A stretch of DNA of 64,000 nt from Microbulbifer aggregans (GTDB taxonomy: Bacteria; Pseudomonadota; Gammaproteobacteria; Pseudomonadales; Cellvibrionaceae), in the NCBI RefSeq assembly GCF_001750105.1, contig NZ_CP014143.1, positions 1,116,001 through 1,180,000 of the forward strand, given 5' to 3'. The stretch's first letter is position 1, and the number at the start of each line of letters is the position of its first letter. Of this stretch, positions 31,569 through 60,923 are shown piece after piece. The notes below the pieces were generated by a model. That model ran no database searches. It worked only from the letters and a program-made list of their open reading frames with translations, and had not been told where the DNA came from. A program made the position numbers and the translations under genes.

Positions 31569-32378
31569 ATGGAAGAGCCATCGCGCATCAAGACGTTCCT
31601 GCGTCACGTAAAGCACTGGTGGGTACTCAAGACCTCACCACGTCAAAACCGGGTTTACACCCAGTTCTACCGGTTCCCCAATCAGTACCGGGCACTGATC
31701 GACAAGATTGTGCCGCGCATCAGGTCTCAACGCGATGGGCCATTGCAGGTACTTGTTTTTGGCTGTTGCAGTGGTGCCGAGCCTATTTCCCTCGCGTCGA
31801 TATTGAAAAAACACTTTCCGGATCTGGATTTCCAGATTCGAGCGTTCGATATCGTTCCCGAGGTGATCGAGCGGGCCCGCAGCCCCCTCTATTCCGCCGA
31901 GGAGGTTTACCAGGGCCCCTTTGTCACAGATGAATTCGTCGCCGATACCTTCGACAAAACGGAGGAGGGTTATCGGGTCAAACCATCCCTGATGTCGCAT
32001 ATGACATTCGCCGTCGGCGACATGCTCGACAGGGTTTTTATCGAGAGCCTCGGCAAGGTTGACCTGGTCTTTGCACAGAATGTGCTGTTTCACCTGCCTC
32101 CCGCCAGCGCGCGGCGCGCGTTTGCCAACCTGAACCTGGCTCTGCGCCCCGGCTCCGCCCTGTTTATCAACGGCATGGATGTGGATATGCGGGTCAAGCT
32201 CACCAAGAAATTCTATCTCGACCCGCTGGAATACCTGATCGAGGAAATCCACAACGATGCCAGGGTTGACCGGGGTAACAGCTGGGCCGCGGCCTACTGG
32301 GGACGCAAACCCTTTAGTACCCGCTCCAGGGAGTGGATCAGAGAACACTGCACGATTTATAGCAAGGCACGAGTATGA
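31569..32378 (+). CDS. CheR-like SAM-dependent methyltransferase
   Basis: A 269-residue class I methyltransferase of the CheR type. The SAM-binding motif VLVFGCCSGAEPISLA lies near residues 62-77, the acidic loop is FDIVPEVIERAR with SPLYSAEEV (the CheR-like pattern after motif II), and the catalytic-region LVFAQNVLFHLPP lies near 166. CheR makes carboxyl methyl esters on chemoreceptor glutamates, but there is no chemotaxis gene here. Its stop overlaps the NRPS start (ATGA), so it is co-translated with the NRPS. It may methylate a carboxylate or hydroxyl of the NRPS product or of the polysaccharide; this is inference. Confidence 0.8.
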   Translation: MEEPSRIKTFLRHVKHWWVLKTSPRQNRVYTQFYRFPNQYRALIDKIVPRIRSQRDGPLQVLVFGCCSGAEPISLASILKKHFPDLDFQIRAFDIVPEVIERARSPLYSAEEVYQGPFVTDEFVADTFDKTEEGYRVKPSLMSHMTFAVGDMLDRVFIESLGKVDLVFAQNVLFHLPPASARRAFANLNLALRPGSALFINGMDVDMRVKLTKKFYLDPLEYLIEEIHNDARVDRGNSWAAAYWGRKPFSTRSREWIREHCTIYSKARV

Positions 32379-35300
32379 ATATCGTCGAGCATCTCTCCGC
32401 CAATTTTTCCCGTTTCACGTTGGGGGAAACGGAGCAGTCGATCGCGGAACGCTTTGAAAAGATTGCCCTGCTATATGGCGGGCGTTTGGCAATTACTGAT
32501 GCCAATTCATCCATTACTTATGGTGCGCTGAACCAGCTCGCCAATCGAATGGCGAGAAATATCCTTTCCGTAGCGCCGGCCGAAGAGCCGGTACGCATCG
32601 CGGTTTTCATGGAAAAGGGCATCCAGAATATTGCCGCCATTCTCGCCGTGCTGAAGTGCGGCCATGCTTACGTCCCCATCGACCCCGAGTTTCCGGAAGA
32701 GCGGAACCGTCATATCTACCGGGAGTCCGGGGCTGCCCTGCTGGTAACCAATACCAATAGCCGCGCAGCGGCAGCCAAACTGGCCGGGGACACTGCCCGC
32801 ATCCTGGATCTGGATGGGATCCCGGAGAGCACCAACAGCGATAACCTCGATGTCGATATCTCGCCGGATGCCCTTGCGTACATCATCTATACCTCCGGCT
32901 CCACTGGCAGACCCAAGGGGGTGGTGCAGAACCAGCGCAATGTGCTCCATGGCTGCATGCGTCGCACTAATCTGCAGAAGGTGATTCCCCAGGACCGGAT
33001 GACGCTTTTCTATTCCTGCAGTGTCATCGCCTCGGTGTACTGCATTTTTGGTGCGCTGCTGAACGGTGCATCTCTATTTCCCTATGATTTCCGCACCGAT
33101 GGGGTGGAGAAGCTCGCGAATTGGCTCCGCTCGCGCCGGATTACCATCTACCACTCGGTGGCCTCGGTCTTTCGTGAGTTTGCACGCTCATACCAGGGCG
33201 CGGATGATGTGTTTGATGTCCGCCTGGTGATCTTTGGTGGCGAGCGCGTGCTGACCAGCGATGTGGAATTAGCGCGCAAGGTCTTCTCCCGAAAAATCGC
33301 CTTTTACACGGGTCTCGGCTCTACCGAGACCGGCACCATGCGCTATTTCCCGATTGACGAAGATACGGAGATCGATGAGGAAGTGGTGCCGATCGGATAC
33401 CCGGTCGAAGGTATCGACGTGCTGCTCCTGGATGAAGAGGGCAATGAAGTAGCGGCGGGCGAGGTGGGCGAGATTGCTGTCCGCAGTCGCTATGTCGCCC
33501 TCGGCTACTGGAAAAATTCCGAGGCGAGCGAGAAGGCGTTCTACTCCGATCCCAAAGATCCCGACGTCCGTATCTACCGCACCGGCGACCTGGGCCAGAT
33601 GGAACAAGACGGCTTGCTGCGCCACCGCGGCCGCAAGGACTTCCAAGTAAAGATTCGCGGCTTCCGGGTTGAGGTGAGTGAGGTAGAGGCCAACCTGATC
33701 GATCATCCGGCGATCTCCGAGGCCGTGGTGGTGGCGCGTGACCTCCGTGGCGAGACCCAGCTGGTGGCGTACATTGTGCCCGCGGAAGGAGAGCTGGTAA
33801 CGGTACAGGGGCTTCGCAATTATCTTGCCGATCGGCTCACCTACTACATGATCCCCACAGTGGTGGTGTGTCTCGATCAGTTGCCCAAAACGCCGAATAA
33901 CAAGGTCGACCGCAACGCGCTACCCGAGCCGGACGAGAAAAATATCCTTGCAACCGAGACACGGGTGCCCCCCCAGGGGGCGACGGAATCGCAACTGGTG
34001 GAATTTGCTCGTGAAGTGCTGGACCGGGAAGATATCGGCACCAACCAGAACTTCTTTGACCTCGGCGGCCACTCTCTGCGTGCCATGCAGTTACTTGCCC
34101 GTATCCGCGAGCATTTTGCTGCGGACCTGTCGGTGCGGGCAATTTTTGAAGCGCGGGACTTCAAGGACCTGGCAACAGCGATTGATGCGGCACCACCACT
34201 GAGTGAGGATTCTCAGCCGGAATTCATTCATGCGCCGGAAACGGCTCGCCTGCCATTGTCATCGGCGCAAACCAGAATGTGGCTGGCAGACCAGCTTTAC
34301 GGCGGTGGAGCGGCTTACAACATCTCCAATACCGTTTACCTGGAGGGCGAGCTGAACCTGCCGGCACTGGAAGAGGCCATTGGCCAAATCGTGTCGCGGC
34401 ACAGTATTCTGCGCACCCGGTTCCCAAGCGATGAGGCGGGACCCCGCCAGGAAATTTTGCCCGCAGACGCATTCGAGCTGAACGTGATCGATCTGCGCGC
34501 GATGGCAAAAGCGGAGCGCGCAAAACGTGCGATGCAGATCTGTCGCCGTCTCCTGGAGGCGCGTCAGGATCTGGCTGATGGGCCACTATTCTGCAGTACT
34601 CTGGTACGAGTGGGCGAGCGGGCGGCCGTATTGGCGCTCGTTTTCAACCATATCATTTACGACAATATCTGGTCTTCGGCGATCTTCTTCAGAGAGTTGG
34701 CCCACCTCTACGGTGCGCTGAGCCAGGGCCATGCGGCCTCGCTGCCGCCGCTGGAATTCCAGTTTGTCGATTATGCCTATTGGGAGCAGAGCCAGGCGCA
34801 AAGCCCGAGTCAGGCAAAGCAGTTGGCATTCTGGCGCGATCAGCTGTCGGGCGCTCCGGAGACCCTGGACCTGCCGGCGGACCATCCCCCGCAGGGCAAA
34901 CCCGACTTCAGCGGCGGTATCGTACGCTTCAAGTTGCCGACTGCTCCTTGGGCTGCGGCCAGGACAGTGGCAAAGCAGGAGTCAGTCACCGGCTTCATGG
35001 TATTGCTTGCCGTCTGGCAGTTGCTACTGCATCGCTACTCCGGCCAGGACGACATCCTTGTCGGCACACCTACTGGTCGCCGTCCGCTGACCCAGACCGA
35101 GGACATGATCGGCCTGTTCATCAACACCCTGGTACTGCGCACCGACTTTTCCTCAGCGCCAGGCTTCCGTGAATTACTGGCGCAGGTGCGTGCGACCACC
35201 ATCGACGCCTTCTCCAATGACCAGGTTCCCTTCGAACGCGTAGTGGCAGATTTGAACCCGGATCGTCGCGGGGGAACAGCGCCGTTGTTCCAGCACCTGT

Positions 35301-38300
35301 TCATACACCGCCAGATGGAGGGGGATCAGTGGCAGCTGCCGGGACTGCAGGTCAAGCCACTGGAAATTCACAGTGGCGGATCCAAGTTCGATCTGACACT
35401 TTCTGTGCTTGAAAAAGCAGATGAAGTCGCTTGCACAATCGAATATCGCCGCGCGCGGTTCGAACGGCAGACTATTGAGCGGATGAGCCAGCATTTCACC
35501 CAGCTCCTCGAGGGTGCCGTCACTGCACCGGACTGCCCCGTCGGTGAGCTGCCAATGATCGGCGCGGCGGAGCGCTGCAAGCTGCGGGAACAGGTGCAAC
35601 GCACGGCGCGCACACTGCCGGTGCAAGAGACAACCGCGCAACTGTTCGAGCGTGTAGCCACATTGCGCTCCGAAGAGATTGCCGTGATTGCCGGCACCGA
35701 GCAGTTAACCTATAGCGCGCTGAACCGAGCAGCCAATGCACTGGCTCGCGATCTTATCGATCGTGGTCTCAAGCCTGGACAGCTGGTGGCCGTATGCATT
35801 GACCGGGAAATCTCCATGGTCAGCGCATTGCTGGCGGTCTGGAAGGCCGGGGGCGCATATGTGCCGCTGGATCCCCACTTCCCGGCAGAGCGGCTGTCCT
35901 ACATGCTCGAAGATTCCGGCGCGGGCTTCCTGATTACAGCAGCGGCACTGCGGGACCGTTTTTCAGACTTTTCCGGAGAGGTGCTACAGCCGCCCGAGCC
36001 AGACGAAGTGCTGGCACGGGATCGCTGTCGGAATCTGCAGCCCCTGGCCGGCGGCAATGACCTCGCCTATGTCATTTATACCTCCGGCTCTACCGGCCGA
36101 CCGAAAGGGGTGGAGATTACCCACCGCAGCCTGGTGAACTTCCTCTGCGCCATGCAGAAAGAGCCTAGTTTCAGCGCGGATGACCGGCTGCTGGCAGTAA
36201 CCACACTCTGCTTCGATATCGCCATGCTGGAGATTTTCCTGCCGTTGATCAGTGGTGGCAGCGTCGTGATCCAGGATCGCCGTGGATGCATGGATCCGCA
36301 GAAAATCCGCGAGGCGATCGAAAAACACAACATCAGCGTCATGCAGGCGACTCCAGCGACCTGGCGTATGTTGCTTGATTTTGGCTGGCAGGGTGAACCG
36401 AGTGTCCGCGTATTCTGTGGTGGCGAAGCCATGGGCGAGGATCTTGCGGCGAGCCTGTTGGAACGCGGGCTGGAAGTCTGGAATCTCTACGGCCCCACCG
36501 AGACCACGATCTGGTCGGCTGCGGGCAGAATTCGCGCGCCTGCTGAGGCCCGTTTCGTCGGGGCCCCGATTGCGAACACGCGACTGTATGTCCTCAACAG
36601 CGCCGGCGCGTCACAGCCCGCCGGTGTGCCGGGCGAGTTGTGTATTGGTGGTGCGGGACTGGCGCGGGGCTATCGCAACCGGGAAGAACTGACCCGGGAA
36701 AAATTCTTCTCTTCAGAACTCGACCCGCACGGACGCCTTTACCGCACTGGGGACCTGGTCGTACAGCGGCTGGATGGCAGGCTCGAGTTCCTCGGCCGTA
36801 TCGATCATCAGGTCAAAATCCGTGGTTTCCGGGTCGAGCTGGGCGAGATCGAGAGCGCCCTGCTTGGCGATGATATCCGGCGAGCGGTGGTGATCGCTCA
36901 CAATGATGATTTCGGCAGTCAGTATCTGGCGGCTTACCTGATCCCGGTGGATGGAGCGAAGATCGATATTACCGCATTGCGAACCCGGCTGCGACAGACG
37001 CTGCCGGAATATATGGTACCGGCACACTTTGTCACCCTGGATGCCTTCCCGATGACAGCCAATGGCAAAGTGGATCGCAAGGCTTTCCCGCCGCCGTCCG
37101 ACAACGCCGCCGCCGGCCAGGATCCGCAACCGCAAACTCAGACACCGCCGGACTCAGAGCCAGCCGGGCCTGCACCAATCAAAGTGAAAGTGCAGCAGCC
37201 ACGGAAAGCTCCTGCTCCGGAACACAGCAAGTCAACTGTGACACCGTCCAAGGAGCAGCCCAAAAAAACAGTTCTGCGCGAACCTGAGGCTGAAGTTGAG
37301 CCCCCACAGCAGACCGCGGTCAAGCAGACCCGGGAAATTGTCGGTGTCGACGCTGTACCGAATAATCCACCTGGCAAAGCAACACCGTCTCCGGTGGAAG
37401 ATGTGGTGCGCGCAGTGTTCCGCGACGTACTGAAAGTGCCGATTGAATCGGATGAGGCCAGCTTCTTTGACCTTGGCGGTCACTCACTGGCTGCCATCCA
37501 TGCCATCGCACGGCTCAATCAGCATTTCGGTTTGAGCCTGCCGCCGACGTTGCTGTTTGATTTTGCCAGCATACGCCAGTTGAGCAGTGCGATTACCGCC
37601 TTCCGTGAGGGACAGTCTGAACAAGAGGTCATGGAACAGGCCTCACTGGATGAGGCTACCAGTCGCCAGGTGGATGCCATTCTGGAAGCAGTGAAGGAGA
37701 AGAAAGACGCACTGGACATGCCGGACTTCCCCCACGGGATGAAGATGCGGGAATCACCATTTGCCAGAAAATGGCTGGCCCCACTATTTGCGATCAGAAG
37801 CGGTTTCCTGCGTATCCTGTTGCAGAAGTTGATCCTGAAGCTGGAAGGCGGTTCTACGTTCAGTGTCACGATGCGCAAGCTCTATCGCCAGCACTACGAC
37901 ATCCATGTGGCTGATTTTTCCAGCGTGCCGTTTGAGCCGACTCGTCTGAAAAGAACAACCAGGATCGGCAAATACTGCACGATCTACCGCACAGTGAATT
38001 TCCAGAATGCCGATCACCCGCGGAATACACTGTCGACCCATGGTCTGTTCTACTCCAGGGGGCTGGGCTTCAGTACGGGCTATGAATTGGATCGAGTCAC
38101 TATTGAGGTGGGCAATGATGTCTGGATCGGTGACGGAGCCAAGATACTCTATCCCACTAGAAAGATTGGTGACGGTGCCGTGATCGCCGCTGGCGCAGTG
38201 GTGGTGGAGGATGTACCGCCATATGCGATTGTGGCCGGTTATCCAGCCCAGGTGGTGCGCTATCGCTTTTCAAGGGAGACCATTGCCAAACTGGAATCCC

Positions 38301-38386
38301 TGAAGTGGTGGGAAATGTCCGACCGCAATCTCTTCCATGCCCGGGGTGAGTTTCTACGACCATTGGAAGGTGATCGGGTGCACTGA
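32375..38386 (+). CDS. Two-module NRPS ending in a hexapeptide acyltransferase (A-PCP-C-A-PCP-LbH)
   Basis: A 2003-residue non-ribosomal peptide synthetase. Order: A1 (about 25-520), PCP1 with Ser567 in DLGGHS, C domain (about 625-1075; NHIIYDN at 758-764, catalytic His759), A2 (about 1085-1570), a Pro/Gln/Lys-rich linker (about 1572-1670), PCP2 with Ser1704 in DLGGHS, and a left-handed beta-helix acyltransferase (about 1785-2003; likely catalytic His1881 in NADHPRN, hexapeptide coils 1908-1960). There is no thioesterase or reductase. The A2 pocket reads DILQFGLIW plus Lys1565, one change from the known glycine code. A1 has Ile218 where amino-acid-activating domains have Asp. Predicted product: an acyl-glycyl thioester on PCP2 that the LbH domain hands to a hydroxyl or amine. 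The polysaccharide genes around it suggest a sugar acceptor. Confidence 0.9.
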   Translation: MNIVEHLSANFSRFTLGETEQSIAERFEKIALLYGGRLAITDANSSITYGALNQLANRMARNILSVAPAEEPVRIAVFMEKGIQNIAAILAVLKCGHAYVPIDPEFPEERNRHIYRESGAALLVTNTNSRAAAAKLAGDTARILDLDGIPESTNSDNLDVDISPDALAYIIYTSGSTGRPKGVVQNQRNVLHGCMRRTNLQKVIPQDRMTLFYSCSVIASVYCIFGALLNGASLFPYDFRTDGVEKLANWLRSRRITIYHSVASVFREFARSYQGADDVFDVRLVIFGGERVLTSDVELARKVFSRKIAFYTGLGSTETGTMRYFPIDEDTEIDEEVVPIGYPVEGIDVLLLDEEGNEVAAGEVGEIAVRSRYVALGYWKNSEASEKAFYSDPKDPDVRIYRTGDLGQMEQDGLLRHRGRKDFQVKIRGFRVEVSEVEANLIDHPAISEAVVVARDLRGETQLVAYIVPAEGELVTVQGLRNYLADRLTYYMIPTVVVCLDQLPKTPNNKVDRNALPEPDEKNILATETRVPPQGATESQLVEFAREVLDREDIGTNQNFFDLGGHSLRAMQLLARIREHFAADLSVRAIFEARDFKDLATAIDAAPPLSEDSQPEFIHAPETARLPLSSAQTRMWLADQLYGGGAAYNISNTVYLEGELNLPALEEAIGQIVSRHSILRTRFPSDEAGPRQEILPADAFELNVIDLRAMAKAERAKRAMQICRRLLEARQDLADGPLFCSTLVRVGERAAVLALVFNHIIYDNIWSSAIFFRELAHLYGALSQGHAASLPPLEFQFVDYAYWEQSQAQSPSQAKQLAFWRDQLSGAPETLDLPADHPPQGKPDFSGGIVRFKLPTAPWAAARTVAKQESVTGFMVLLAVWQLLLHRYSGQDDILVGTPTGRRPLTQTEDMIGLFINTLVLRTDFSSAPGFRELLAQVRATTIDAFSNDQVPFERVVADLNPDRRGGTAPLFQHLFIHRQMEGDQWQLPGLQVKPLEIHSGGSKFDLTLSVLEKADEVACTIEYRRARFERQTIERMSQHFTQLLEGAVTAPDCPVGELPMIGAAERCKLREQVQRTARTLPVQETTAQLFERVATLRSEEIAVIAGTEQLTYSALNRAANALARDLIDRGLKPGQLVAVCIDREISMVSALLAVWKAGGAYVPLDPHFPAERLSYMLEDSGAGFLITAAALRDRFSDFSGEVLQPPEPDEVLARDRCRNLQPLAGGNDLAYVIYTSGSTGRPKGVEITHRSLVNFLCAMQKEPSFSADDRLLAVTTLCFDIAMLEIFLPLISGGSVVIQDRRGCMDPQKIREAIEKHNISVMQATPATWRMLLDFGWQGEPSVRVFCGGEAMGEDLAASLLERGLEVWNLYGPTETTIWSAAGRIRAPAEARFVGAPIANTRLYVLNSAGASQPAGVPGELCIGGAGLARGYRNREELTREKFFSSELDPHGRLYRTGDLVVQRLDGRLEFLGRIDHQVKIRGFRVELGEIESALLGDDIRRAVVIAHNDDFGSQYLAAYLIPVDGAKIDITALRTRLRQTLPEYMVPAHFVTLDAFPMTANGKVDRKAFPPPSDNAAAGQDPQPQTQTPPDSEPAGPAPIKVKVQQPRKAPAPEHSKSTVTPSKEQPKKTVLREPEAEVEPPQQTAVKQTREIVGVDAVPNNPPGKATPSPVEDVVRAVFRDVLKVPIESDEASFFDLGGHSLAAIHAIARLNQHFGLSLPPTLLFDFASIRQLSSAITAFREGQSEQEVMEQASLDEATSRQVDAILEAVKEKKDALDMPDFPHGMKMRESPFARKWLAPLFAIRSGFLRILLQKLILKLEGGSTFSVTMRKLYRQHYDIHVADFSSVPFEPTRLKRTTRIGKYCTIYRTVNFQNADHPRNTLSTHGLFYSRGLGFSTGYELDRVTIEVGNDVWIGDGAKILYPTRKIGDGAVIAAGAVVVEDVPPYAIVAGYPAQVVRYRFSRETIAKLESLKWWEMSDRNLFHARGEFLRPLEGDRVH

Positions 38387-38540
38387 CCAAGCCCCGGTGC
38401 CACTCACAGGGAGCTGGCGCCGGGTTTCCACAGCTGTACATTCGACTCAGAGGGCGAGGGTAAGAACAGATAGTCGATTCAGCCGGCCTAAAAAATTTGA
38501 AGGGGCAGTTGACGCCCAGATTATCCAAGTCCTGATTGGA

Positions 38541-39383
38541 CTACGCTGAATGTCGCGAGGTTTCGTCACGGAGCCAGTGAGAGCGACCTCGCTTACCCAT
38601 CAGTCGGTGTGCATTGATCAAGGCGAACAGGTTTACCCCACCGTAGACCAGTCTTTCCATCAGTGGCGGCCGCTGCAGAAAACGCTGGCTGAACTCTGGG
38701 CCGTCACCGATCTTTGTTTCACTGTTCTTGATTTCCAGGCTGCCGAGCTTGCTGCGGGTCTTGATACGGATCAGCCCGGCGAAATCCCGTGGCGACTTGA
38801 CCAGGCTCTTGGCCGACTCGACCACGTGAATATTGTCGTAATTCAGTATCTGCCGTACAAAGCCGTCATCAGAGATCAGGTTGGGGAAGCGATCAAATTT
38901 TTCTCTGGCTGCTCGATTCAGTGCATAGACTCCCGAACCAAAGCCGTGCAATTGGAAGAAGATGGTCTTCTGCCACGCTTGGTAGTAGGTCCGTACTAGC
39001 CACTCACAGCCTTCTGTTTTGGGTACAGCGCGGGGGGCTACCACGGCCGGTCGGTCAGTATTCCGGCAGGCTTCAATCAGGGCTTCGACCGCGCTACTAC
39101 TGATCACGACATCGGCATCGATATAGACCCGCGGATAACCAAGATCCGCATTTTCGGCCGCATTGAGCGCTGCCACCTTTGAGGCCTGCTCGAGCTCGAT
39201 ACAGCAAACTTCCGGAAAGTGGTAGCGGACAATTTCCGCAGTGCGATCAGAGCAGCCGTTGCATGCCACTGTGATTGTATAACCCTTTTTCTGAACACCA
39301 GGCATCAGAGCCCGGAGTAGCGTCGCGATCGATAACTCCTCGTTGTGCGCGGGAATGATCACTGCGGGAAGAATGTCCGACAT
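38541..39383 (-). CDS. Family 2 glycosyltransferase
   Basis: A 280-residue GT-A fold transferase. The start is ATG 39383, the first codons of MSDILPAVIIPAHNEE; the frame extends upstream only into the preceding gene. VIIPAHNEE near residue 8 and the DxD-like VYIDADV near 88 bind the nucleotide sugar. A hydrophobic segment near the C-terminus may touch the membrane. It begins 1 bp after the stop of the next transferase, so translation is coupled. It is the last gene of the leftward part of the polysaccharide locus. The sugar is unknown. Confidence 0.85.
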   Translation of the reverse strand: MSDILPAVIIPAHNEELSIATLLRALMPGVQKKGYTITVACNGCSDRTAEIVRYHFPEVCCIELEQASKVAALNAAENADLGYPRVYIDADVVISSSAVEALIEACRNTDRPAVVAPRAVPKTEGCEWLVRTYYQAWQKTIFFQLHGFGSGVYALNRAAREKFDRFPNLISDDGFVRQILNYDNIHVVESAKSLVKSPRDFAGLIRIKTRSKLGSLEIKNSETKIGDGPEFSQRFLQRPPLMERLVYGGVNLFALINAHRLMGKRGRSHWLRDETSRHSA

Positions 39384-39384
39384 A

Positions 39385-40317
39385 TCAGAATTTCCAGCTG
39401 AGCTGTTGCTTGAAGAAGTTCCACCAGGCTTTACGCCGGTGATTGAAATCTCGGCGTAGTGGCGCCAGTAGAGAGAGCGCTGAGAGCCGCAGAAGCGTGC
39501 CAGCATTCAGCATCATGCGTGCGATTCGAAATGGCAGCGGTCGCCAGTGCTTGCGAAAATAAAGCAGCTTGGAATAGTAGAGGTGGCGAAGTTTTTTCTC
39601 GCTGGTCAGCGTAACACTACCTGCATGCGTGACGCGCGCAGCAGGAACAATCCGCGGCCTCGCACCGAGCAATCGCCCCCGGCGACATAAATCAATTTCT
39701 TCCGAGTAAAGAAAAAAGCGTTCATCAAAACCGCTGAGTCGGTGAAAGAGCGCACTGTCGATGAGAAAGAAGCAGCCGGAGACGGCATCGACCTGTGAAC
39801 CATGCAGTAGTTTGCGCCGAGAATAGGACTCAAAGCCGGCAAAGCCGAATGGTCGCAGCGCGGCATCAAAAAAGAAGCTCCAGGCCGCGAGTCCCAGCAG
39901 AGAGGGCTCGCGCCATGCACTTTTGTCATCGGGGCTGCCATCCGGTCCATAGGTGATACCACCCCAGATTCCGCTCAGTGGGTATTTGCGGGTACCGGAG
40001 ACCAATTCGGTCAGGCTGTCCGGATACAGGCGGACATCCGGATTGAGAAAAAGGATGAGATCGTCACCCTCGAGATGCCGAACACCGAGGTTACAGCCGG
40101 CTCCGAAGCCCAGATTACGACCCGATTCAATCAGCACATGCCGGACACCCTGGATACCGCGCAGCAACTCGACTGAATCATCAGCCGACGCATTATCGAC
40201 AATGGTGAGGCTGAGTTTCTGCAGCGGATAATTACCAGCACGAATATCCCCAACCAGCTTCAGGATGTCGCGCCCGCAGTTGTAGCAGACGATAACGATA
40301 TTGATCGGTGGCAGCAT
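39385..40317 (-). CDS. Family 2 glycosyltransferase, rhamnosyltransferase-like
   Basis: A 310-residue GT2 enzyme resembling WbbL-type rhamnosyltransferases. INIVIVCYNCGRD at the N-terminus, NLGFGAGCNLGVRH near 80 and LFLNPDVRLYPDSL near 100 (metal/nucleotide site) are visible, with FFLYSEEIDLCRRGRLLG-like acceptor region near 205. The ATG at 40317 has GGGAGG five bases ahead and is preferred to ATG 40338 or TTG 40341. It overlaps no gene from this start and follows the polymerase gene by 20 bp. Confidence 0.86.
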   Translation of the reverse strand: MLPPINIVIVCYNCGRDILKLVGDIRAGNYPLQKLSLTIVDNASADDSVELLRGIQGVRHVLIESGRNLGFGAGCNLGVRHLEGDDLILFLNPDVRLYPDSLTELVSGTRKYPLSGIWGGITYGPDGSPDDKSAWREPSLLGLAAWSFFFDAALRPFGFAGFESYSRRKLLHGSQVDAVSGCFFLIDSALFHRLSGFDERFFLYSEEIDLCRRGRLLGARPRIVPAARVTHAGSVTLTSEKKLRHLYYSKLLYFRKHWRPLPFRIARMMLNAGTLLRLSALSLLAPLRRDFNHRRKAWWNFFKQQLSWKF

Positions 40318-40337
40318 GGCTGCCTCCCTGCTTTCCA

Positions 40338-41699
40338 TCAACCCGGGCTCCCGATGGGACCAGCCTGGTGTGGCATGGCAGGTGCTTGCCGTATGGCTGT
40401 GCGGCGCTTGGTTTCGGAAACAGCGACAGCACTACCCAGGAAAATAAAGAACAGGCACACCAGCTGGCCGAAATAAGAAACGGCCAGGAAGCTCATACAG
40501 TGTACAAACAGGGTGACGCCGACGCCCCATAGCAGCCAGTAGGCGGCCCGACTTCTGGTCTGCCGTAATTTGCGTCCGAGGCGCAGGAAGATACAGGTCA
40601 GCAAAGCAATGAATAGCAGCATTTGTAATAGGCCGCCGCTGACCCCTTCGAGTATGTACTGGTTAGTGATGTCCTGCAGGCCCCAACCCCAGTGCCCGGT
40701 GGACTCGGTCCCGAACGCCCACCACTCATTGAAGTGGTTGATCGATTGCTGGATGAGGTTGTAACGATGCCAACCGGTGGAACCATTGGAGAGATCGATT
40801 CTGGCGATCAAATGCCAGATTGGCATTTCCATAACCATGTGCAGACCGAGCATGGCGGCAAAGACGCCGGTGACCAATACTCGCAGATAATGGCGGAGCG
40901 GAAATAGGGCCATGCCGAAGATGCCGAACAACACCGCCATGATAGGGGTACTGGATGCCGTATTGACGACGATCAGGCCCATACAGAGGATGGAAAGCAC
41001 CAGCGCGGGACGGCTGCCGGCGCGAGCAATCCAGAGTGCGCCGATACAGGGCAATAGGCTTGCCCAGAAGACACCGGCCATGATCGGGTGGGAGAAAGGT
41101 CCCTGTGCACGCATTCGACCATTTCGGATGATGGTTTCTTCTGGCACGCCGCCGAAAAAGCCAAACACATTGCGACCGGTGAATTGCTCCACCAGGAAGA
41201 AAGCCAGCATTGGGATTGCAATGAACGACAACCAAAGAAGGTAACGACGCAGGTCGGCCAATGAGCGGATATAAGTGCGGCCGATAAGATAAGCGCCAAA
41301 GGTGCCGATGGCATGGCCTGCTGCACCAATAATTCCACTTGAATCTCCGCTCAAGATTCCGCCTGCAATAATACCCCAGCATACCCACAGTCCGATCAGG
41401 AAATCTGGCATCCCAAAGCGCAGACCCCGTGTGTGCCCTCTAAAGGCCGCCAGAGCCAGAGTGGCAAGTATCACAATACGGATGAAAGTGAAGTCCAGGG
41501 TCAGTACGGCGATGCGCTGGGCACCCGGGAGTGCTACGGCAATGAAGATCAGCGGTAGCATTGCGTAGCGCCGCGGCAACAGAAAAAGCGCTACGAGGGC
41601 TGCAATCAAAGCCGCAATACCCAGTGGGTGCGCCATGGTCTGATCGGCCCAGAGGGCGCCGCCGAAGTGATCCGGCATCTGGCGTTCAAACATGGACAT
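40338..41699 (-). CDS. O-antigen ligase/Wzy-like polymerase
   Basis: A 453-residue polytopic membrane protein, with about 11-12 helices and one large periplasmic loop (about residues 285-345) containing RIDLSNGSTGWHRYNLI, a feature of the Wzy_C/O-antigen ligase family in which an Arg in such loops handles undecaprenyl-linked repeat units. It is the likely polymerase of the Wzx/Wzy pathway. AGGAGG is eight bases upstream of the ATG, and the start overlaps the FrhB-like gene by 14 bp. Confidence 0.82.
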   Translation of the reverse strand: MSMFERQMPDHFGGALWADQTMAHPLGIAALIAALVALFLLPRRYAMLPLIFIAVALPGAQRIAVLTLDFTFIRIVILATLALAAFRGHTRGLRFGMPDFLIGLWVCWGIIAGGILSGDSSGIIGAAGHAIGTFGAYLIGRTYIRSLADLRRYLLWLSFIAIPMLAFFLVEQFTGRNVFGFFGGVPEETIIRNGRMRAQGPFSHPIMAGVFWASLLPCIGALWIARAGSRPALVLSILCMGLIVVNTASSTPIMAVLFGIFGMALFPLRHYLRVLVTGVFAAMLGLHMVMEMPIWHLIARIDLSNGSTGWHRYNLIQQSINHFNEWWAFGTESTGHWGWGLQDITNQYILEGVSGGLLQMLLFIALLTCIFLRLGRKLRQTRSRAAYWLLWGVGVTLFVHCMSFLAVSYFGQLVCLFFIFLGSAVAVSETKRRTAIRQAPAMPHQAGPIGSPG

Positions 41700-43026
41700 C
41701 GACCTCCTGTTTCGATTGGTCGCTCTGGCGGAGCTGAACCGGTGTCGAAACCCGTTGTGGTGTTATTTGGGGATGCGCTGTTGTTGGAGCAGGGTGTAAC
41801 AGGCGTTTGCGGAAAATCCGCTTCACGGTCCCAAGTAGGGAATGCAACTTTTCGGCAATGCTCAGTTCGCTAAGCCAGAATCGCAGCAGGGCGAATCCTG
41901 AGTAGTTGGGTGTGCACGCCCCGAATAGTCGCAGCACGCTCAGGCGGGCCCAGAGGTTCCCACGGGCGCCGATCAGGTTTGGCTGGGAGCGGGGTAAGAG
42001 GCTCGGATCATCCCTGACTTCTTCCAGATAACCGGCATCGACTGCGGCCTGCAGCAGTTCGAGTCCACGCCGCGTGCGTGCCACGATCAGGGAGCTACCC
42101 ATCTCGCCGGCCTCGATCTCACGATGCCATGGATCACCCACGGCGATATCGGCAAACTCACCGGTATGATCCGCACAGACATAGCAGCGCCACTGACGGT
42201 GCTTTTGCAGGAAATGCCAGGACTCGGCATAGGTCGTGCGGCTTGACTGTCTGTTGTTATGCTCATCGTCATAGCCGAGAGTCCATTGCCCCGGCCAGCC
42301 GTTGCCACGGTAACGAAGAGACTTGATGTGGGCGGCGCTGGGTGCGCCCTGGCGTTTTGCCAGTGCGAGCGTGGCCGCAGTGCTGGGCACGCCGGCACAA
42401 AAGAAGGCGATGGAGAGACCAATGTTGTCGCGCAGAGGGGGGGAGTTTTTCTGCGCACGTCGCAGCGCCGCCACATCACAGGGCTTGCCGATAAAGACAC
42501 AGGGGCCGTCGGCAGCGAGGACCTGGTCCAGGCTGTCGCAGGGGCTCGATGGGGCATAGCGGGAACCGGTGGCAGCCAATAGCCCGGAGCGGTCACGGCT
42601 GAAGACCGTACGGTTTAGATAGGGATGCTCAGGGTCTGCCGCCGTGTGCAGAACGCCATGCATGGCACGTTGCTCCAGGCAGAAGAGGGCGAGTGCAGTG
42701 GCCGCACCGCCACTGGAGCCTGCGAAGCGAACAGCTGGATCCCCGGCGTGGCCCTCGATTACCCGGTATACCGGCCCCCAGGCCGGGCCCAAATCGGACA
42801 GGAGCTCCGTGTCCGTGACATCGTAGTCATGTTGCAGGCCCACCCCGGGGCAAGCTGCCATGGCAAGCCCCGTCTCTGGCGGTGCATTGGTCTGCACCAC
42901 GGGGCGCCGGCCTTCCTCGATGAAATCAACCATTTTGAATCGCTGGGGCTCAAGCGAGGCACAGACACCACAGCCAGTACAGAGATGGCTGCGCCGCACT
43001 TCCTCAATGGTCTTTATCTTGCGCAT
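41686..43026 (-). CDS. FrhB-like Fe-S protein of polysaccharide loci
   Basis: A 446-residue protein of the coenzyme F420 hydrogenase/dehydrogenase beta-subunit family. CTGCGVC near residue 17 can hold a 4Fe-4S cluster, and further cysteines (MAACPG near 58, YVCADH near 280) fit a second cluster site. The FAD/F420-binding-like domain lies in the middle. Genes of this type recur beside polysaccharide pyruvyl transferases; F420 is not expected here, so the redox partner is unknown. It may oxidise or reduce a sugar or its pyruvyl substituent. Confidence 0.78.
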   Translation of the reverse strand: MRKIKTIEEVRRSHLCTGCGVCASLEPQRFKMVDFIEEGRRPVVQTNAPPETGLAMAACPGVGLQHDYDVTDTELLSDLGPAWGPVYRVIEGHAGDPAVRFAGSSGGAATALALFCLEQRAMHGVLHTAADPEHPYLNRTVFSRDRSGLLAATGSRYAPSSPCDSLDQVLAADGPCVFIGKPCDVAALRRAQKNSPPLRDNIGLSIAFFCAGVPSTAATLALAKRQGAPSAAHIKSLRYRGNGWPGQWTLGYDDEHNNRQSSRTTYAESWHFLQKHRQWRCYVCADHTGEFADIAVGDPWHREIEAGEMGSSLIVARTRRGLELLQAAVDAGYLEEVRDDPSLLPRSQPNLIGARGNLWARLSVLRLFGACTPNYSGFALLRFWLSELSIAEKLHSLLGTVKRIFRKRLLHPAPTTAHPQITPQRVSTPVQLRQSDQSKQEVDVHV

Positions 43027-43182
43027 TGGCGGCGGTCTACTCCGGCTGGGACATATTCGATCGATCTAAAAACGTGCAAAAAATTTTAGAGCGCTTGTAA
43101 AAAAACGTGACTGAATAGGTGAAGGGTGCAGGCGATCAGACGCCAAAATTTTCTGCTGCTGCAGGATGAAAGCCCACATTCG

Positions 43183-44448
43183 CTATTCCGACACACAGCA
43201 CTGGGCGATTTCATCCATTTGCCTCGATGCCTTGTCGAGCACCTTCGGCAAGTGGTCATTAAGCGATTGGCGAACACTATCGCGGCGCTGAAAGGCGTCA
43301 AAAACCCGCTCAGATAGTTCGACGCTGTCGAGCTGTCGCGGATCGAAAACCTCTGCCCGCTGGCCACAGCTTTCGAAGACACCGATGGCTTTGTCACTAT
43401 AGGAAATCGTGGTGGTGGGCACACCGCTGGACAGGGAAGCGATGGTGGCATGCATACGGGTGCCACAGAACCAGTCCATCTGTGAAATCACCCATTTGAT
43501 GCCGGATTCATCGAGGTGATCCTCGAGCAAATAAACCCGCTCACGTTCAGCTGGTCTCAGGGTTGTTACCAGGTGCCGGCATGCATCCAGATCCGACTCG
43601 GGATGGCCGAACGGAGCGTGTACGTGTGGTACGAGCAGAATCCCAGCATCGGTCTCCCGCAGGAAGCGTTTTAACAATACCTGCACTGCGGCACGGTAGT
43701 CGGCCTTCAGGCCATAGCGCTGACTGGCTTCCCGGGGACTGTTATAGATCAGTCCACTGATATTGAGGCCAACCAGCTCGAAAGGGGACTCGGTCAGCCA
43801 GGAGCAGAACCCCGCGTTCAATCCTGCCGGTCGCCTGCTGGGTAGTAGGAAAGCGACGTCAACGCCGCATTTGTGTCGCGCCGGATCGAGGTCGCTGCCG
43901 AGCAATTCGGCCATGCGCTGGAAGCTATCCCGATCCCTTGCCCACGCACAGTGGCTCCGACGCAGAATGTCCTCTGCAATCTTACGCCGTGACCGAGAGC
44001 GAAATGGTCCATAAGTTTGGGGAAGCAGAATCAGTCGTCCCTTTTTCTCCAGCACCAGCTGCTTCGGGCGTGTGATCAGCGAAAACCGCTTTGCACCATA
44101 GAGGTCAGTAAAACTGTCACCACCGCTGATATCCAAAACGGCCTTCGAAGTGCTGAGTAACTCCATGCCGGGATTGGAAAGCCCGGGTAACAGCGTCGAC
44201 AGCCGCATATGGGCCAAGCTCTCGGGTCGGTAAAAACGCCGGCTGTTGCTCAGGCCGCACAAATTGTAAGGCACTGTGTCGTGGCCAGCCTGATAAGATG
44301 CCTGTCTGAGTCCGCGTCCATTGTCAAAGATGCAGATTTCCGCTTCAGGAATCCGCTTGGCGATGCCCAGCATAGTTGAACGTGACAGGGCGTTTACGCC
44401 CAGATTGCCGGTATCTGGGGCGGCTCCGAGCAGGGAGATTCTCGTCAT
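43183..44448 (-). CDS. Polysaccharide pyruvyl transferase family protein
   Basis: A 421-residue protein of the WcaK/CsaB pyruvyl transferase family, which adds ketal-linked pyruvate from PEP to a sugar. N-terminal ISLLGAAPDTGNLGVNAL (near residue 4) matches the conserved GN-G-D/N entry, LDISGGDSFTDLYG near 104 is the family core, RLILLPQTYGPF near 135 and the C-terminal GTRMHATIASLSSGVP (near 343) are typical. ATG 44448 is used; a TTG nine bases earlier is possible. A 156-bp AT-rich gap with no ORF separates it from the FrhB-like gene. Confidence 0.88.
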   Translation of the reverse strand: MTRISLLGAAPDTGNLGVNALSRSTMLGIAKRIPEAEICIFDNGRGLRQASYQAGHDTVPYNLCGLSNSRRFYRPESLAHMRLSTLLPGLSNPGMELLSTSKAVLDISGGDSFTDLYGAKRFSLITRPKQLVLEKKGRLILLPQTYGPFRSRSRRKIAEDILRRSHCAWARDRDSFQRMAELLGSDLDPARHKCGVDVAFLLPSRRPAGLNAGFCSWLTESPFELVGLNISGLIYNSPREASQRYGLKADYRAAVQVLLKRFLRETDAGILLVPHVHAPFGHPESDLDACRHLVTTLRPAERERVYLLEDHLDESGIKWVISQMDWFCGTRMHATIASLSSGVPTTTISYSDKAIGVFESCGQRAEVFDPRQLDSVELSERVFDAFQRRDSVRQSLNDHLPKVLDKASRQMDEIAQCCVSE

Positions 44449-44513
44449 GTGGTGCAAACTCGTACCTATTCATCTGGCGGATATCGAAATCTCGGAAAAC
44501 CTGTCGCGATGCA

Positions 44514-45026
44514 CTAGCTCTCGAGCGGCTCCGGCTCATGGTGCTGTTCAATAAAGTCCGTTACGAATTGCGCCAGCTCAAGCTGGCGGGTGTTTTTTTG
44601 TGGCTTTTCGGGCGCTATCAGGCTGTGATGGGTATCAAGTCGCCGAATGAGTTCGGCGGCGTTGTGGGCGATATAAATTCCTGGTAGGCAGGCCATGCGC
44701 CGTGCGGTGCCGAATTGGTGATCACTGATGCACTCCCCCAACTGTTGATCACGTGGCATCATCAGCAGCGGCTTGCCGTACTCGAGTGCAGAGAGAACAC
44801 TGCCCATACCCGCGTGAGACAGAATCAATGTGCAATCCCTGGCCAGAGCCCGATACTCGCTGCTGTCGAGGAATGGCTTTGCCTCGATGTGTCGCGGCCG
44901 ATAGCGCCCTCTGCCGATCTGACCGACGATTCGTGCATTGGCGTTTTTCCCCGCCCAGTCATCCACAATCCTGACAAACCGATCAAACGGCGCCCGGGTG
45001 CCGGTGGTGAGCAAAATCAGGCTCAT
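44514..45026 (-). CDS. Alg13-like glycosyltransferase subunit
   Basis: A 170-residue GT28 C-terminal-domain protein. SLILLTTGTRAPFDRFV opens the fold; SHAGMGSVLSALEYGKPLLMMPR near residues 76-98 is the UDP-sugar-binding signature of MurG/Alg13. It lacks the membrane half, which is supplied by the Alg14-like gene upstream; its ATG overlaps that stop by 4 bp (ATGA). Such split transferases (for example PssE/PssD and CpsG/CpsF) add an early sugar to the lipid carrier. Confidence 0.85.
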   Translation of the reverse strand: MSLILLTTGTRAPFDRFVRIVDDWAGKNANARIVGQIGRGRYRPRHIEAKPFLDSSEYRALARDCTLILSHAGMGSVLSALEYGKPLLMMPRDQQLGECISDHQFGTARRMACLPGIYIAHNAAELIRRLDTHHSLIAPEKPQKNTRQLELAQFVTDFIEQHHEPEPLES

Positions 45027-45472
45027 AGGATGGCGCCCCGGTATTCCACCCCGGATGCACGACCAATTTCTGGCCACTGTGACAGAGTTTTTGTCGCAAC
45101 ATGCCGCGCGAGTCGCCCACTCAGGGACAGGCGGTCGGTATTGGCGATACTATCGATCCACAGGGAACGCGCGCCCAGAAACCGTCCCCAAATTATGCAG
45201 GCGAGGCCGGGCAGGGAGCCTGTGGAGATGATCACTTCCGGACGCAGGCGAACAACTAGCCATGCAGAGGCGAGAAAGAGCCAGATAATATGAAGCGGGG
45301 CGCGGCGGTTTGCTGCGGGCAGGAAGTGATAATGATAGGGCTCGCCGATGCCGGGGTTTTCCCTGGTTGTGGAGGCAAAACTGGCCTGACAGCTCTGGAA
45401 CGCGGGCGCCAACGTCGTTAATTGTTTCCAGTGTCCCCCTTGGGATGCCACAGCCAAGACTCTTCTGTCCAT
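45023..45472 (-). CDS. Alg14-like glycosyltransferase membrane subunit
   Basis: A 149-residue partner of the downstream Alg13-like protein. RRVLAVASQGGHWKQL at the start is the Gly-Gly-His motif of PssD/CpsF/Alg14, followed by a hydrophobic anchor near 60-76 (HIIWLFLASAWLVV), then STGSLPGLACIIWGRFLG. Alg14-type proteins recruit the catalytic partner to the inner membrane. It is the first gene of the leftward group; the upstream 255 bp are shared with the divergent flippase gene. Confidence 0.85.
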   Translation of the reverse strand: MDRRVLAVASQGGHWKQLTTLAPAFQSCQASFASTTRENPGIGEPYHYHFLPAANRRAPLHIIWLFLASAWLVVRLRPEVIISTGSLPGLACIIWGRFLGARSLWIDSIANTDRLSLSGRLARHVATKTLSQWPEIGRASGVEYRGAIL

Positions 45473-45727: not shown

Positions 45728-47224
45728 TTGTCTCTACGGCTCAGTCTATTAAAGGGTGCGTCCGTGCTGACGTTGAGTCAGGCACTGGTGGCAGCCTGTA
45801 CACTTTTGCGCAATATCATCATCGCCAGGCATATTGGTCTCGAAAATTTTGGTATCGCTACTACCTTCGCGCTCACCATTTCTCTCGTAGAAATGACCAG
45901 TAACCTGGCCCTGGACCGGGTCCTGGTGCAGGACCACGATGGCGCCAGCGATGATATGCTCGGCTCCGCACACTTTTTGCAATTTTTGAAGGGTTTGCTG
46001 ATCTCCATCATATTGTTGGCGCTTGCCTACCCGATCGCACATCTATTTGGCGCGCAAGACAAGGTGTGGGCGTTCCAGTTATTGGCGATCGTGCCGGTGC
46101 TGCACGGGATGATGAATTTTGACTATGTCGTGCGACAGCGGAATCTTGAGTTTGTGCCAACGGCACTTTTCGACACCATACCGCAGCTGCTGACTCTCAT
46201 CGTCGCCTTTGGTGCCTCGCTGATGTTCGAAGATTATCGAGTGATGCTGGCCGTGATTCTGCTGCAGGCAGTCATGCAAGTTATGCTGTCTCACCTGCTG
46301 GCACGTCGGCCTTATCGCTGGGTCCTGCGCTGGCCGCTGGCGAAGAGAAAGTTGACCTTCGGCTGGCCGCTACTGGCTAACGGTTTTCTGATGTTTGGAA
46401 TTTTTCAGGGTGATCGCGCCATCATCGGCAGCCTGTACAACATGGAGACCCTGGCCTGGTACAGTGTTGCATTCTCGCTGTGCATGCTGCCCACCCTGAT
46501 ATTTGCAAAATTAAGTGCCTACCTATTGATGCCGGTGCTTTCCCGAAGTCGCGATGATGCCGCGCTCTTTTACCGCTGCTCGGAATTCGCGTTGATCGGC
46601 TGTTTCGGATTTGCTGTGCTGGTGGTGGTCTTCTTCGGTGTGGGCGGGCACGGACTGATCCGCCTCAGTTTTGGAGAGCAGTACCTACAGGCTGTGAGTG
46701 TTATCACCTGGCTGGCTGTCATGCAGGCATTGCGTGTTATACGCATTGCCCCCTCGATCATTGCCAATAGCCAGGCGCATACAAAAAACGCGATGATTGC
46801 AAATATCTTCCGCTGTATCAGTCTCGGTTTCGCTGTGATGTTTGGTCTCAACGGCGCCCCGGTAACATGGATTGCAGCGACCGGAATCGGCGGGGAAATG
46901 ATCGCCCTTGCTGTATCGGTTTATCTCGTGCAAATCGGTAGCGGCAAGGCACGGTTTGTACGTGCTCTGGCCCAGTTAATGATGTTGAGTGGCGTGCTGT
47001 GTTATGCCTTTGTCGCCCTAATCCCCAATCTGCTCCCTCATCCTGACAGCACTGTCGTATTTGGACTATTACAGATCGCAGTGGCCGGCTTCGCCGCACT
47101 GCTTGCCGCTATGCTATTGGCAGTTGCCCAGTCATCCGTGCGCAAGGAAATAGTGACACTCATACGCAGTCGCAGGAAGGGCGGTAGCTTCACCAATGGC
47201 CTCGGGAGTAGACAAGGAACCTAG
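45728..47224 (+). CDS. Polysaccharide flippase, Wzx-like
   Basis: A 498-residue membrane protein of the MOP/Wzx flippase group with about 12-14 helices. It begins at TTG 45728, with GGAG six bases upstream. LSQALVAACTLLRNIIIARHIGLENFGIAT near residues 16-45 is the usual N-terminal entry of Wzx proteins (only its first part is quoted as a motif: ALVAACTLLRNIIIARHIG). It moves lipid-linked repeat units across the inner membrane for polymerisation by the Wzy-like protein. Confidence 0.9.
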   Translation: MSLRLSLLKGASVLTLSQALVAACTLLRNIIIARHIGLENFGIATTFALTISLVEMTSNLALDRVLVQDHDGASDDMLGSAHFLQFLKGLLISIILLALAYPIAHLFGAQDKVWAFQLLAIVPVLHGMMNFDYVVRQRNLEFVPTALFDTIPQLLTLIVAFGASLMFEDYRVMLAVILLQAVMQVMLSHLLARRPYRWVLRWPLAKRKLTFGWPLLANGFLMFGIFQGDRAIIGSLYNMETLAWYSVAFSLCMLPTLIFAKLSAYLLMPVLSRSRDDAALFYRCSEFALIGCFGFAVLVVVFFGVGGHGLIRLSFGEQYLQAVSVITWLAVMQALRVIRIAPSIIANSQAHTKNAMIANIFRCISLGFAVMFGLNGAPVTWIAATGIGGEMIALAVSVYLVQIGSGKARFVRALAQLMMLSGVLCYAFVALIPNLLPHPDSTVVFGLLQIAVAGFAALLAAMLLAVAQSSVRKEIVTLIRSRRKGGSFTNGLGSRQGT

Positions 47225-47262
47225 TTCCCAATACTCATGGAAACCAAAAAAAGGTGATTTCC

Positions 47263-49037: not shown

Positions 49038-49793
49038 TCATCTGTCAATTTCTCTATTTCTATGCCGCGGCGCAGTCACGAGATAGCAACTCAATGCAGT
49101 CTCCGAAAAAGGCTTGCAGTCAATGTGCTGGAGAGTGGTGCCCTCGATCAATGGGCGGGTGAAACCGCAGGGACGATCGCCTGCCAGTAGCAGTTCAACT
49201 TCGGTGGGTGGCAGGGATAAGCCCAGACCAGTCAGCTTCATCATTGCTTCTTTAGCGGTCCAGAAGTCGTAAAACCTCCTGCGTCGTTCCATGCCACTGC
49301 TTTCATCTAGGTGGCAGCGCTCGGTCTCTGTAAAGACCATGGATAACAGTGAGCCAAAACAGAAGGCCTCCTGATGCACCTCCAGATCGATACCTACCGA
49401 GCGCGAGTGCGAGAGCGCACAGACCGCCAGGCCTTCGGAATGGGAAATGTTGAACGAGAGGCTGCTACCAGCCAGATAGGGTCTACCGTGGGAGCCAAAG
49501 GAGAACTCGAGCTGCCCGGGTTCGCGATTTAGTTGCAGGGCCAGAATCCGGCGAAGACAGCCGCGTCCGCGTATATAACGCTCGCGATCCCGCTCACAAA
49601 CAAAGGCGCGCGCCCGCTCGCGCTCCTCTTTACAGAGGTAGCTTCTCGCCTCAGCAAGGGTGATGTCGGAGTCATCATCCAGGTGAAAACAGAACAGCCT
49701 GACTGGCCGATTTATGTCTTCTTCAACCGCTGGAGCCTGCTTTATTGGCAGGCTGGATGCTGCACGGGGGCGCAACAGTGCAGGGCTTTCCAT
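49038..49793 (-). CDS. Sfp-type 4'-phosphopantetheinyl transferase
   Basis: A 251-residue PPTase that attaches phosphopantetheine from CoA to the serine of carrier domains. The start is ATG 49793, with GGAGG five bases upstream; a frame extension to 49832 lacks such a site. Family motifs are present: GRPYL with FNISHSEG near residues 120-140, VGIDLE near 158, and FWTAKEAMMKLTGLGL near 200. Length fits the Sfp/EntD group, which serves NRPS and PKS carriers. It is the only PPTase in the window and lies in the same locus as the NRPS, so it very probably activates Ser567 and Ser1704. It is alone on the minus strand here. Confidence 0.93.
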   Translation of the reverse strand: MESPALLRPRAASSLPIKQAPAVEEDINRPVRLFCFHLDDDSDITLAEARSYLCKEERERARAFVCERDRERYIRGRGCLRRILALQLNREPGQLEFSFGSHGRPYLAGSSLSFNISHSEGLAVCALSHSRSVGIDLEVHQEAFCFGSLLSMVFTETERCHLDESSGMERRRRFYDFWTAKEAMMKLTGLGLSLPPTEVELLLAGDRPCGFTRPLIEGTTLQHIDCKPFSETALSCYLVTAPRHRNREIDR

Positions 49794-49997
49794 GAGAACC
49801 TCCGCAAGATGGCGCCGGATTGCCGGGCCCATTTACGCGATGATGAAAAGGAGCACCGGTTACAGACTGAAAACACCGGCTTCAGGGACTGGGAGCAAGG
49901 ATAGTCGGCTATGCTGGAACTACACTGAGTAAACGGGGGATTTTCCGCCGAGTGCTGTAGTGTTTTCTATCGGGGGTGTTCTATTCAACTTCCAAGC

Positions 49998-53259: not shown

Positions 53260-53294
53260 TAGGCCGCGTACTACCTATTGGAGTGTTACCCACC

Positions 53295-53870: not shown

Positions 53871-53880
53871 GGGCGCAAGG

Positions 53881-59770: not shown

Positions 59771-59821
59771 CTGGCTGCCCCAAGCAGGCGGTCTATAGAA
59801 AGAAATACAACGGAGGATCAC

Positions 59822-60922: not shown

Positions 60923-60923
60923 T

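Follow-up and report, generated by a model that had tools for sequence, protein, structure and literature searches.

Why should a gene block for an exported polysaccharide contain a nonribosomal peptide synthetase (NRPS), and one that ends in an acyltransferase domain of a sugar-modifying type? This question is raised by a 64,000-nucleotide stretch of the chromosome of the marine bacterium Microbulbifer aggregans (NZ_CP014143.1, positions 1,116,001 to 1,180,000), referred to here as the window, in which a CheR-like methyltransferase gene and an NRPS gene span positions 31569–38386 of the forward strand. The answer proposed here is that the NRPS probably makes an acyl-glycine that decorates the Wzx/Wzy-type exopolysaccharide of this locus, its transfer being carried out by a left-handed beta-helix (LbH) acyltransferase domain fused to the end of the synthetase. 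Window proteins were searched with Pfam and NCBIfam profiles, the Pfam scan covering 30 of them, and the M. aggregans genome is complete (3.86 Mb). The two genes, and the adenylation (A), peptidyl carrier protein (PCP), condensation (C) and LbH domains of the synthetase, are laid out as follows.

31569..32378, + strand: CheR-like class I methyltransferase, 269 residues (Pfam CheR, E 5.2e-25)
32375..38386, + strand: NRPS, 2003 residues, A1-PCP1-C-A2-PCP2-LbH (Pfam AMP-binding twice, PP-binding twice, Condensation once, AMP-binding_C)
32444..33928, + strand: A1, predicted adenylation domain for the starter, pocket code IAYHIGGTMK (aligned with A domains of known structure)
33992..34183, + strand: PCP1, LGGHS (Pfam PP-binding, own-genome carrier search, motif)
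34250..35584, + strand: condensation domain, residues 626–1070, active-site motif NHIIYDN (Pfam, E 5.9e-103)
35645..37096, + strand: A2, adenylation domain of glycine type, pocket code DILQFGLIWK (aligned with A domains of known structure)
37100–37402, + strand: Pro-rich linker preceding PCP2
37403..37594, + strand: PCP2, LGGHS, residues 1677–1740 (Pfam, own-genome carrier search, motif)
37745..38383, + strand: LbH acyltransferase domain, residues 1791–2003, catalytic-position His1881 (profile search, alignment, structure model)

The two genes overlap by four bases (ATGA). An earlier sequence-only reading had described a CheR-like methyltransferase overlapping a 2003-residue A-PCP-C-A-PCP-LbH synthetase, and the open reading frame coordinates, lengths, overlap and Pfam domains all agree with it. 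By sequence, the best matches of solved structure to the methyltransferase are chemotaxis CheR enzymes. The larger protein has the features of an NRPS: A, PCP and C domains joined in a single chain of modules, both carrier serines and the condensation-domain histidine. The C motif is NHIIYDN as against HHxxxDG; among 25 full-length homologues, 10 have HHIIYDN and 13 begin with HH. No thioesterase or reductase release domain was found among the Pfam matches of the NRPS, and the LbH domain occupies that place.

The pocket codes of the two A domains point to an acylated glycine. Asp at position 235 is expected in adenylation domains that activate alpha-amino acids. A1 lacks it, and 22 of the 25 full-length homologues have I or M instead; the remaining three (P0023, P0025 and P0027) show a DILQ-type starter code, which perhaps reflects another domain order or a misalignment. 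Judged by this code, the A1 starter is likely a carboxylic acid that bears no alpha-amino group, and the CheR-like enzyme may methylate it. The A2 code DILQ(L/F)G(L/M/V)IWK, which we take to specify glycine, occurs in all 25 homologues, and the best solved match of A2 is the second A domain of linear gramicidin synthetase A. The missing Asp in A1 and the glycine code of A2 together predict the product acyl-Gly-S-PCP. The acyl-type starter and the dedicated NRPS with a glycine module in a polysaccharide locus, both put forward from sequence alone, are supported. Among 18 shorter relatives that end in LbH, nine A codes were assigned by us to glycine, four to threonine (e.g., DFWNIGMVHK) and four to valine (DAFWLGGTFK), and one was unreadable.

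How such a product could leave the carrier depends on the LbH domain. Its Hexapep Pfam match is sub-threshold (23.6 bits, cut-off 27); a profile of the LbH part and its relatives matches solved CatB/Vat/ApmA enzymes (best E 4.4e-31). The structure model, with a mean predicted local distance difference test score (pLDDT) of 89, finds its best structural matches in the CatB/Vat class, and the domain as modelled has the CatB/Vat fold. A protein search listed 107 proteins, the top 47 of which align to the LbH part at 45% identity or more; four of these are polyketide synthases (PKSs). His1881 is invariant in the 47 fused proteins and in 106 free-standing relatives (P0122–P0227, assigned by length and score), and it aligns with a His of two solved chloramphenicol acetyltransferases. 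The LbH at the NRPS end, as read from sequence alone, is borne out, with the catalytic-position His present in the usual place of a thioesterase.

Fused and free-standing domains part at the presumed coenzyme A (CoA) site. At position 1945 the free-standing proteins have K in 58, Q in 20 and R in 13 (K/R/Q in 91/106), with K in both solved enzymes, whereas the fused proteins have E in 30, F in 6, G in 5, D in 3 and A, Q and S in one each. M. aggregans has E1945 and hence lacks the basic residue of the T-K-D loop that is typical of CatB/Vat LbH acetyltransferases, a residue which we take to contact the CoA phosphate. Position 1956 is N in 85, H in 13 and Y in 6 of the 106 free-standing proteins and Y in 43 of the 47 fused ones, and R or K stands at 1959 in 106/106 and 24/47, respectively. 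If residue 1945 does contact the CoA phosphate, its replacement would mean that the fused clade no longer uses free CoA, as would suit a donor tethered to a carrier; this is inferred from a single clade. The fused LbH domains, NRPS and PKS fusions included, form one clade with support 100/98 in a tree built from 35 fused sequences and 17 free-standing ones. The former comprise 34 of the 47 top fused proteins plus one PKS, taken from a search limited to long proteins; the latter, four with long branches, come from a DNA-pattern scan. Candidate free-standing members of the fused clade were sought in the best 120 of 423 matches, where 14 short ones lie above a score gap (P0108–P0121). Six of these (P0110, P0112–P0116) start inside the carrier or linker and are probably truncated fragments; P0118 is possibly a genuine separate protein, and the other seven start at or inside the LbH. 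All 14 were excluded from both groups in the residue counts, and none has K or R at 1945.

The genes that surround the NRPS supply the second line of evidence. The polysaccharide block reaches position 56909 and contains the following genes beyond the NRPS.

38541..39506, - strand: GT2 glycosyltransferase (Pfam PF00535)
39385..40341, - strand: GT2 glycosyltransferase (Pfam PF00535)
40338..41699, - strand: putative Wzy-type membrane polymerase (by position; homologue in 12/12 genus loci)
41686..43026, - strand: FrhB/FdhB-type protein, adjoining the pyruvyltransferase gene (Pfam PF04422, PF04432)
43183..44457, - strand: polysaccharide pyruvyltransferase (Pfam PF04230, E 6.5e-23)
44514..45077, - strand: PssE/Cps14G-like glycosyltransferase subunit (NCBIfam PssE, E 1.6e-21, below cut-off)
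45023..45472, - strand: PssD/Cps14F-like glycosyltransferase subunit (NCBIfam PssD, E 2.5e-18, below cut-off)
45728..47224, + strand: Wzx-type flippase (Pfam PF13440)
47254..48759, + strand: 501-residue protein with a conserved LTGGxDSR motif (alignment of 5 sequences)
49038..49832, - strand: Sfp-type phosphopantetheinyl transferase, PPTase (Pfam ACPS; HetI-like, below cut-off)
50511..51926, + strand: WcaJ, undecaprenyl-phosphate glucose phosphotransferase (TIGR03023, 538.6 bits, cut-off 410.75)
52054..53259, + strand: outer-membrane beta-barrel (BBP2_2), EpsL-like (EpsL below cut-off)
53283..53870, + strand: Wza/EpsE-like export protein (Pfam Poly_export, SLBB)
53851..56145, + strand: Wzc-like copolymerase/tyrosine autokinase (Pfam/NCBIfam)
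56148..56909, + strand: CpsB/CapC-type phosphatase (Pfam PF19567, E 6.9e-46)

By profile matches, an initiating phosphoglycosyltransferase, a flippase and Wza/Wzc-type export proteins are present, as in a Wzx/Wzy-type locus, and the placement of the synthetase beside wzx, Wza-like, Wzc-like, glycosyltransferase and PPTase genes, claimed before any database search, is confirmed by Pfam and NCBIfam. The 40338–41699 product, in the place of wzy, matches no Pfam or NCBIfam family; a 412-residue protein of Ketobacter that shares 22% identity with it is a weak match to Wzy_C (30.3 bits, cut-off 31.7). The NRPS is the sole condensation-domain match in the complete genome, PPTase matches number two (that of the block and a 132-residue, AcpS-sized frame), and two of the four carrier-domain matches are PCP1 and PCP2. 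With the sole C domain, the sole PPTase larger than AcpS size and half of the carriers in the block, the NRPS apparatus of M. aggregans appears to be located in a single polysaccharide locus.

Three observations concern further genes of this region. The 501-residue protein has no Pfam or NCBIfam family match, its LTGGxDSR motif resembles what we take to be the PP-loop of asparagine-synthetase-type enzymes, and its gene occurs in 11 of the 12 genus loci, with two tandem copies in genome G015. The FrhB/FdhB-type and pyruvyltransferase genes (41686–44457) recur together in three loci of unrelated bacteria (L046, L047 and L049). Just beyond the block, at 58440–60940, lie two overlapping reverse-strand open reading frames (426 and 435 residues) with no Pfam family.

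Is the association of NRPS and polysaccharide genes kept in other genomes? A fused LbH is found in 12 of 48 genus genomes (open frames of 1934–2060 residues), and the wzx and pyruvyltransferase of the locus are found, at the thresholds used, in exactly those 12 and no others. A contig of M. flavimaris (L040) also carries the fused LbH. All 12 blocks contain CheR, NRPS, both GT2, wzy, pyruvyltransferase, wzx and wcaJ genes, and wza and wzc are present in all 11 whose fetched stretch extends that far; FrhB was undetected in two (G002, G028) and the 501-residue gene in one (G002). The block adjoins dnaJ/merR/Na-Ca-exchanger genes in five genomes and uvrA in seven (G002, G020, G015, G033, G008, G419 and G424), and is thus held together at two chromosomal places. 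In addition, two Ketobacter-type genomes (G267 and G207) have CheR-NRPS-LbH amid glycosyltransferase, wzc-like, pyruvyltransferase, FrhB and wzx genes, arranged differently. Within the linkage evidence, the second chromosomal place and the Ketobacter type carry more weight. The CheR gene lies upstream of the NRPS in all 14 loci (12 Microbulbifer-type and two Ketobacter-type), and the same domain order away from polysaccharide genes, named earlier as an observation that would speak against a polysaccharide role, was not met in them, all 14 lying in polysaccharide blocks.

The two chromosomal settings differ in two further genes. A GNAT-type gene after the NRPS (PF13480 in G020; e.g., L033:909–2174) occurs in 7/7 uvrA-side loci and 0/5 others, and the locus PPTase was detected in 5/5 loci of the other setting and 0/7 on the uvrA side.

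Beyond the genus, long fused frames were found only in the M. aggregans genome itself, G033, G267 and G207 in an order-wide sample (390 genomes, up to eight candidates scored in each). A phylum-wide sample (398 genomes, at most seven candidates scored in each, E <= 1e-45) yielded the M. aggregans genome and a 209-residue free-standing open frame. No relative of the LbH region was found in viral contigs. The order of one Opitutales genome (372 genomes) gave no match at E <= 1e-45, a search that had no positive control and so shows nothing.

Several points weigh against decoration of a sugar. The genus genomes are related, and co-occurrence in 12 of 48 does not amount to 12 independent observations. 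The neighbourhoods read are mainly of Microbulbifer and Ketobacter type, and 35 of the 47 top proteins (besides that of M. aggregans) carry neither name. The change at 1945 belongs to one clade and hence may represent a single event. No solved or named relative yielded a substrate that would identify the starter acid, no structure of a polysaccharide from this organism was found, and the acceptor could be a molecule other than a sugar. Finally, sister proteins share the core of the synthetase and differ at its end. Thirteen proteins were inspected among the best 120 of 5998 matches, and a precomputed PF00975 thioesterase was present in 11, ten of which have A1 and A2 codes of the M. aggregans kind (P0281, P0287, P0291, P0292, P0295, P0305, P0312, P0318, P0319 and P0323). 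P0274 has the same kind of codes and ends after PCP2, and the codes of P0299 and P0271 are different. Identity of the ten to the M. aggregans NRPS is 59–61% (A1), 50–54% (C) and 50–53% (A2), and the corresponding values for the LbH-ended Ketobacter protein P0020 are 57, 49 and 51%. Equal core similarity with different ends implies that this core has had its release domain exchanged, and its presence does not by itself predict transfer to a sugar. The thioesterase-ended sisters may release acyl-glycine or pass it to something else. Two of them, P0292 (Tsuneonella mangrovi) and P0295 (a Spongiibacteraceae metagenome-assembled genome), have the A1 codes MGYHVGGTIK and MGYHIGGTIK; they share a glycine-type A2 and an A1 60–61% identical to that of M. 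aggregans, and differ in that PF00975 replaces the LbH.

These sisters give some weight to another explanation, that the product is a small acyl-glycine or lipopeptide, free or cell-associated, which is acetylated or released by the LbH, with the polysaccharide neighbourhood merely its genomic home. An equally similar A1-PCP-C-A2 core with a thioesterase end suggests that acyl-glycine can be freed, and free peptides are common NRPS products. This explanation is nevertheless considered unlikely, in view of the fused LbH, wzx and pyruvyltransferase being common to the same 12 genomes, of the block staying together at two chromosomal places and also in Ketobacter-type genomes, and of the absence of a peptide exporter or thioesterase among the Pfam matches of the scanned genes of the block. 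As to the distribution of the sisters, no relative of P0292 was found in viral contigs, and matches to it occur in 517 records of a plasmid collection, all below 60% identity. An order-wide search with P0295 (390 genomes, E <= 1e-200, two candidates scored in each) showed no sister locus among the matches listed, which comprise the LbH-ended family (G267, G207, G000 and G033) and NRPSs at 34–44% identity.

It can also be asked whether the LbH is an ordinary CoA-dependent polysaccharide O-acetyltransferase, fused by chance, with the NRPS product used elsewhere. According to the titles of structure entries, the CatB/Vat/ApmA class uses acetyl-CoA, and four of the five free-standing LbH loci read (L045, L046, L047 and L049) lie near wzx, pyruvyltransferase and/or FrhB genes, while L048 lacks them. 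The latter finding also suggests that the fused LbH was recruited from an ordinary polysaccharide acyltransferase. The domain, however, is placed after PCP2, where a release domain is expected, it follows the carrier in PKS fusions also, and the fused clade departs from free-standing proteins at 1945 and 1956; this explanation is considered quite improbable.

The PKS fusions may extend the argument to other assembly lines. On contig 33 of G267, polysaccharide genes with CheR-NRPS-LbH lie at about 2.9–27 kb and are followed by a C-A-PCP NRPS of 1062 residues (32996–36181; L139:12996–16181) and then by a ketosynthase-acyltransferase-carrier-LbH PKS of 1233 residues (36995–40693; L139:16995–20000, continuing into L140). 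The corresponding PKS of G207 is on a separate contig (C21), the first 20 kb of which show no clear match to the polysaccharide genes of the window. This NRPS/PKS set, together with the glycine-, threonine- and valine-type A domains that precede LbH, is the basis for a tentative generalization, rated at slightly below even odds, that the carrier-LbH unit is a general release module letting NRPS and PKS lines acylate exported polysaccharides.

Genes, domain order, motifs and linkage are read directly from the DNA, and loading, donor, acceptor and product are predicted from them. In the proposed scheme, the locus PPTase would prime PCP1 and PCP2, and A1 would adenylate a carboxylic acid that lacks an alpha-amino group, loading it on PCP1. 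The CheR-like enzyme would methylate the starter acid or a tethered intermediate. A2 would charge PCP2 with glycine, and the C domain would condense the two to acyl-Gly-S-PCP2. The fused LbH would then replace a thioesterase, His1881 serving to move the acyl-glycyl group from the PCP2 phosphopantetheine arm onto an amino or hydroxyl group of a nucleotide sugar or lipid-linked repeat unit, prior to flipping by Wzx. That the acceptor is instead a lipid or protein partner of export, such as an undecaprenyl-linked lipid or an outer-membrane protein, has a precedent in Alm-type systems, which place carrier-borne glycine on lipid A (PMC3783018; PMC4790380), but is the most improbable of the explanations weighed, as solved LbH relatives act on small acceptors including aminoglycosides (entry titles) and the same four of five free-standing relatives sit among polysaccharide genes.

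How does the system compare with known ones? The transferase of Dlt systems is an MBOAT protein. Neither an MBOAT transferase, as in Dlt, nor an LPLAT-type glycyltransferase, as in Alm, was found by Pfam in the 30 window proteins scanned. In Dlt and Alm systems, an adenylation enzyme attaches an amino acid to a carrier, from which an acyltransferase, of LPLAT type in Alm, passes it on to a surface polymer or a glycolipid (PMC3783018; PMC4790380). Passing a carrier-bound group to a surface polymer or glycolipid is what M. aggregans is proposed to share with them; their parts are separate and move amino acids, whereas M. aggregans would use an NRPS-built acyl-glycine and a fused LbH. The DltA equivalog TIGR01734 scores 504.1 bits (cut-off 559.85) and the broader subfamily PRK04813 scores 522, above its cut-off of 476, each score being a sum across the entire NRPS, which contains two A domains. 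The M. aggregans system thus resembles Dlt and Alm in its proposed working and belongs to neither. CatB, Vat and ApmA share the fold and the catalytic-position His with the M. aggregans LbH, which differs in being fused behind a carrier and in the replacement of the basic residue at 1945 and of Asn at 1956. The linear gramicidin synthetase LgrA, the best solved match of both A domains, has the A-PCP-C-A-PCP order, glycine in the second module and a valine starter; it hands its chain on, whereas in M. aggregans the starter is predicted to be a non-amino acid and the chain ends in LbH. O-antigens contain N-acyl-aminoacyl sugars, e.g., N-acetylglycyl amino sugars, which is the same chemistry as that of the predicted product. 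To our knowledge no NRPS makes these sugars, and a literature search found none.

The literature search likewise found no polysaccharide locus in which an NRPS uses LbH release, although it covered few subscription journals and is weak evidence of absence. In a Microbulbifer review (PMC11285056) and a survey of Microbulbifer clusters (PMC12538549), the main texts, as available, do not contain the words exopolysaccharide or capsul-. The survey names NRPS clusters without a known product (PMC12538549). If the proposal is correct, a small NRPS in a genome-mining list may build part of a polymer and be missed in small-molecule extracts. It would also add a release step to those known for NRPS and PKS lines, and link modular assembly lines with cell-surface polysaccharides, fields that are treated apart. 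The polymers concerned would bear acyl-glycyl side groups, and in relatives acyl-threonyl, acyl-valyl or polyketide ones. Should the general reading hold as well, assembly-line chemistry would be a systematic and so far unnamed route to polymer decoration.

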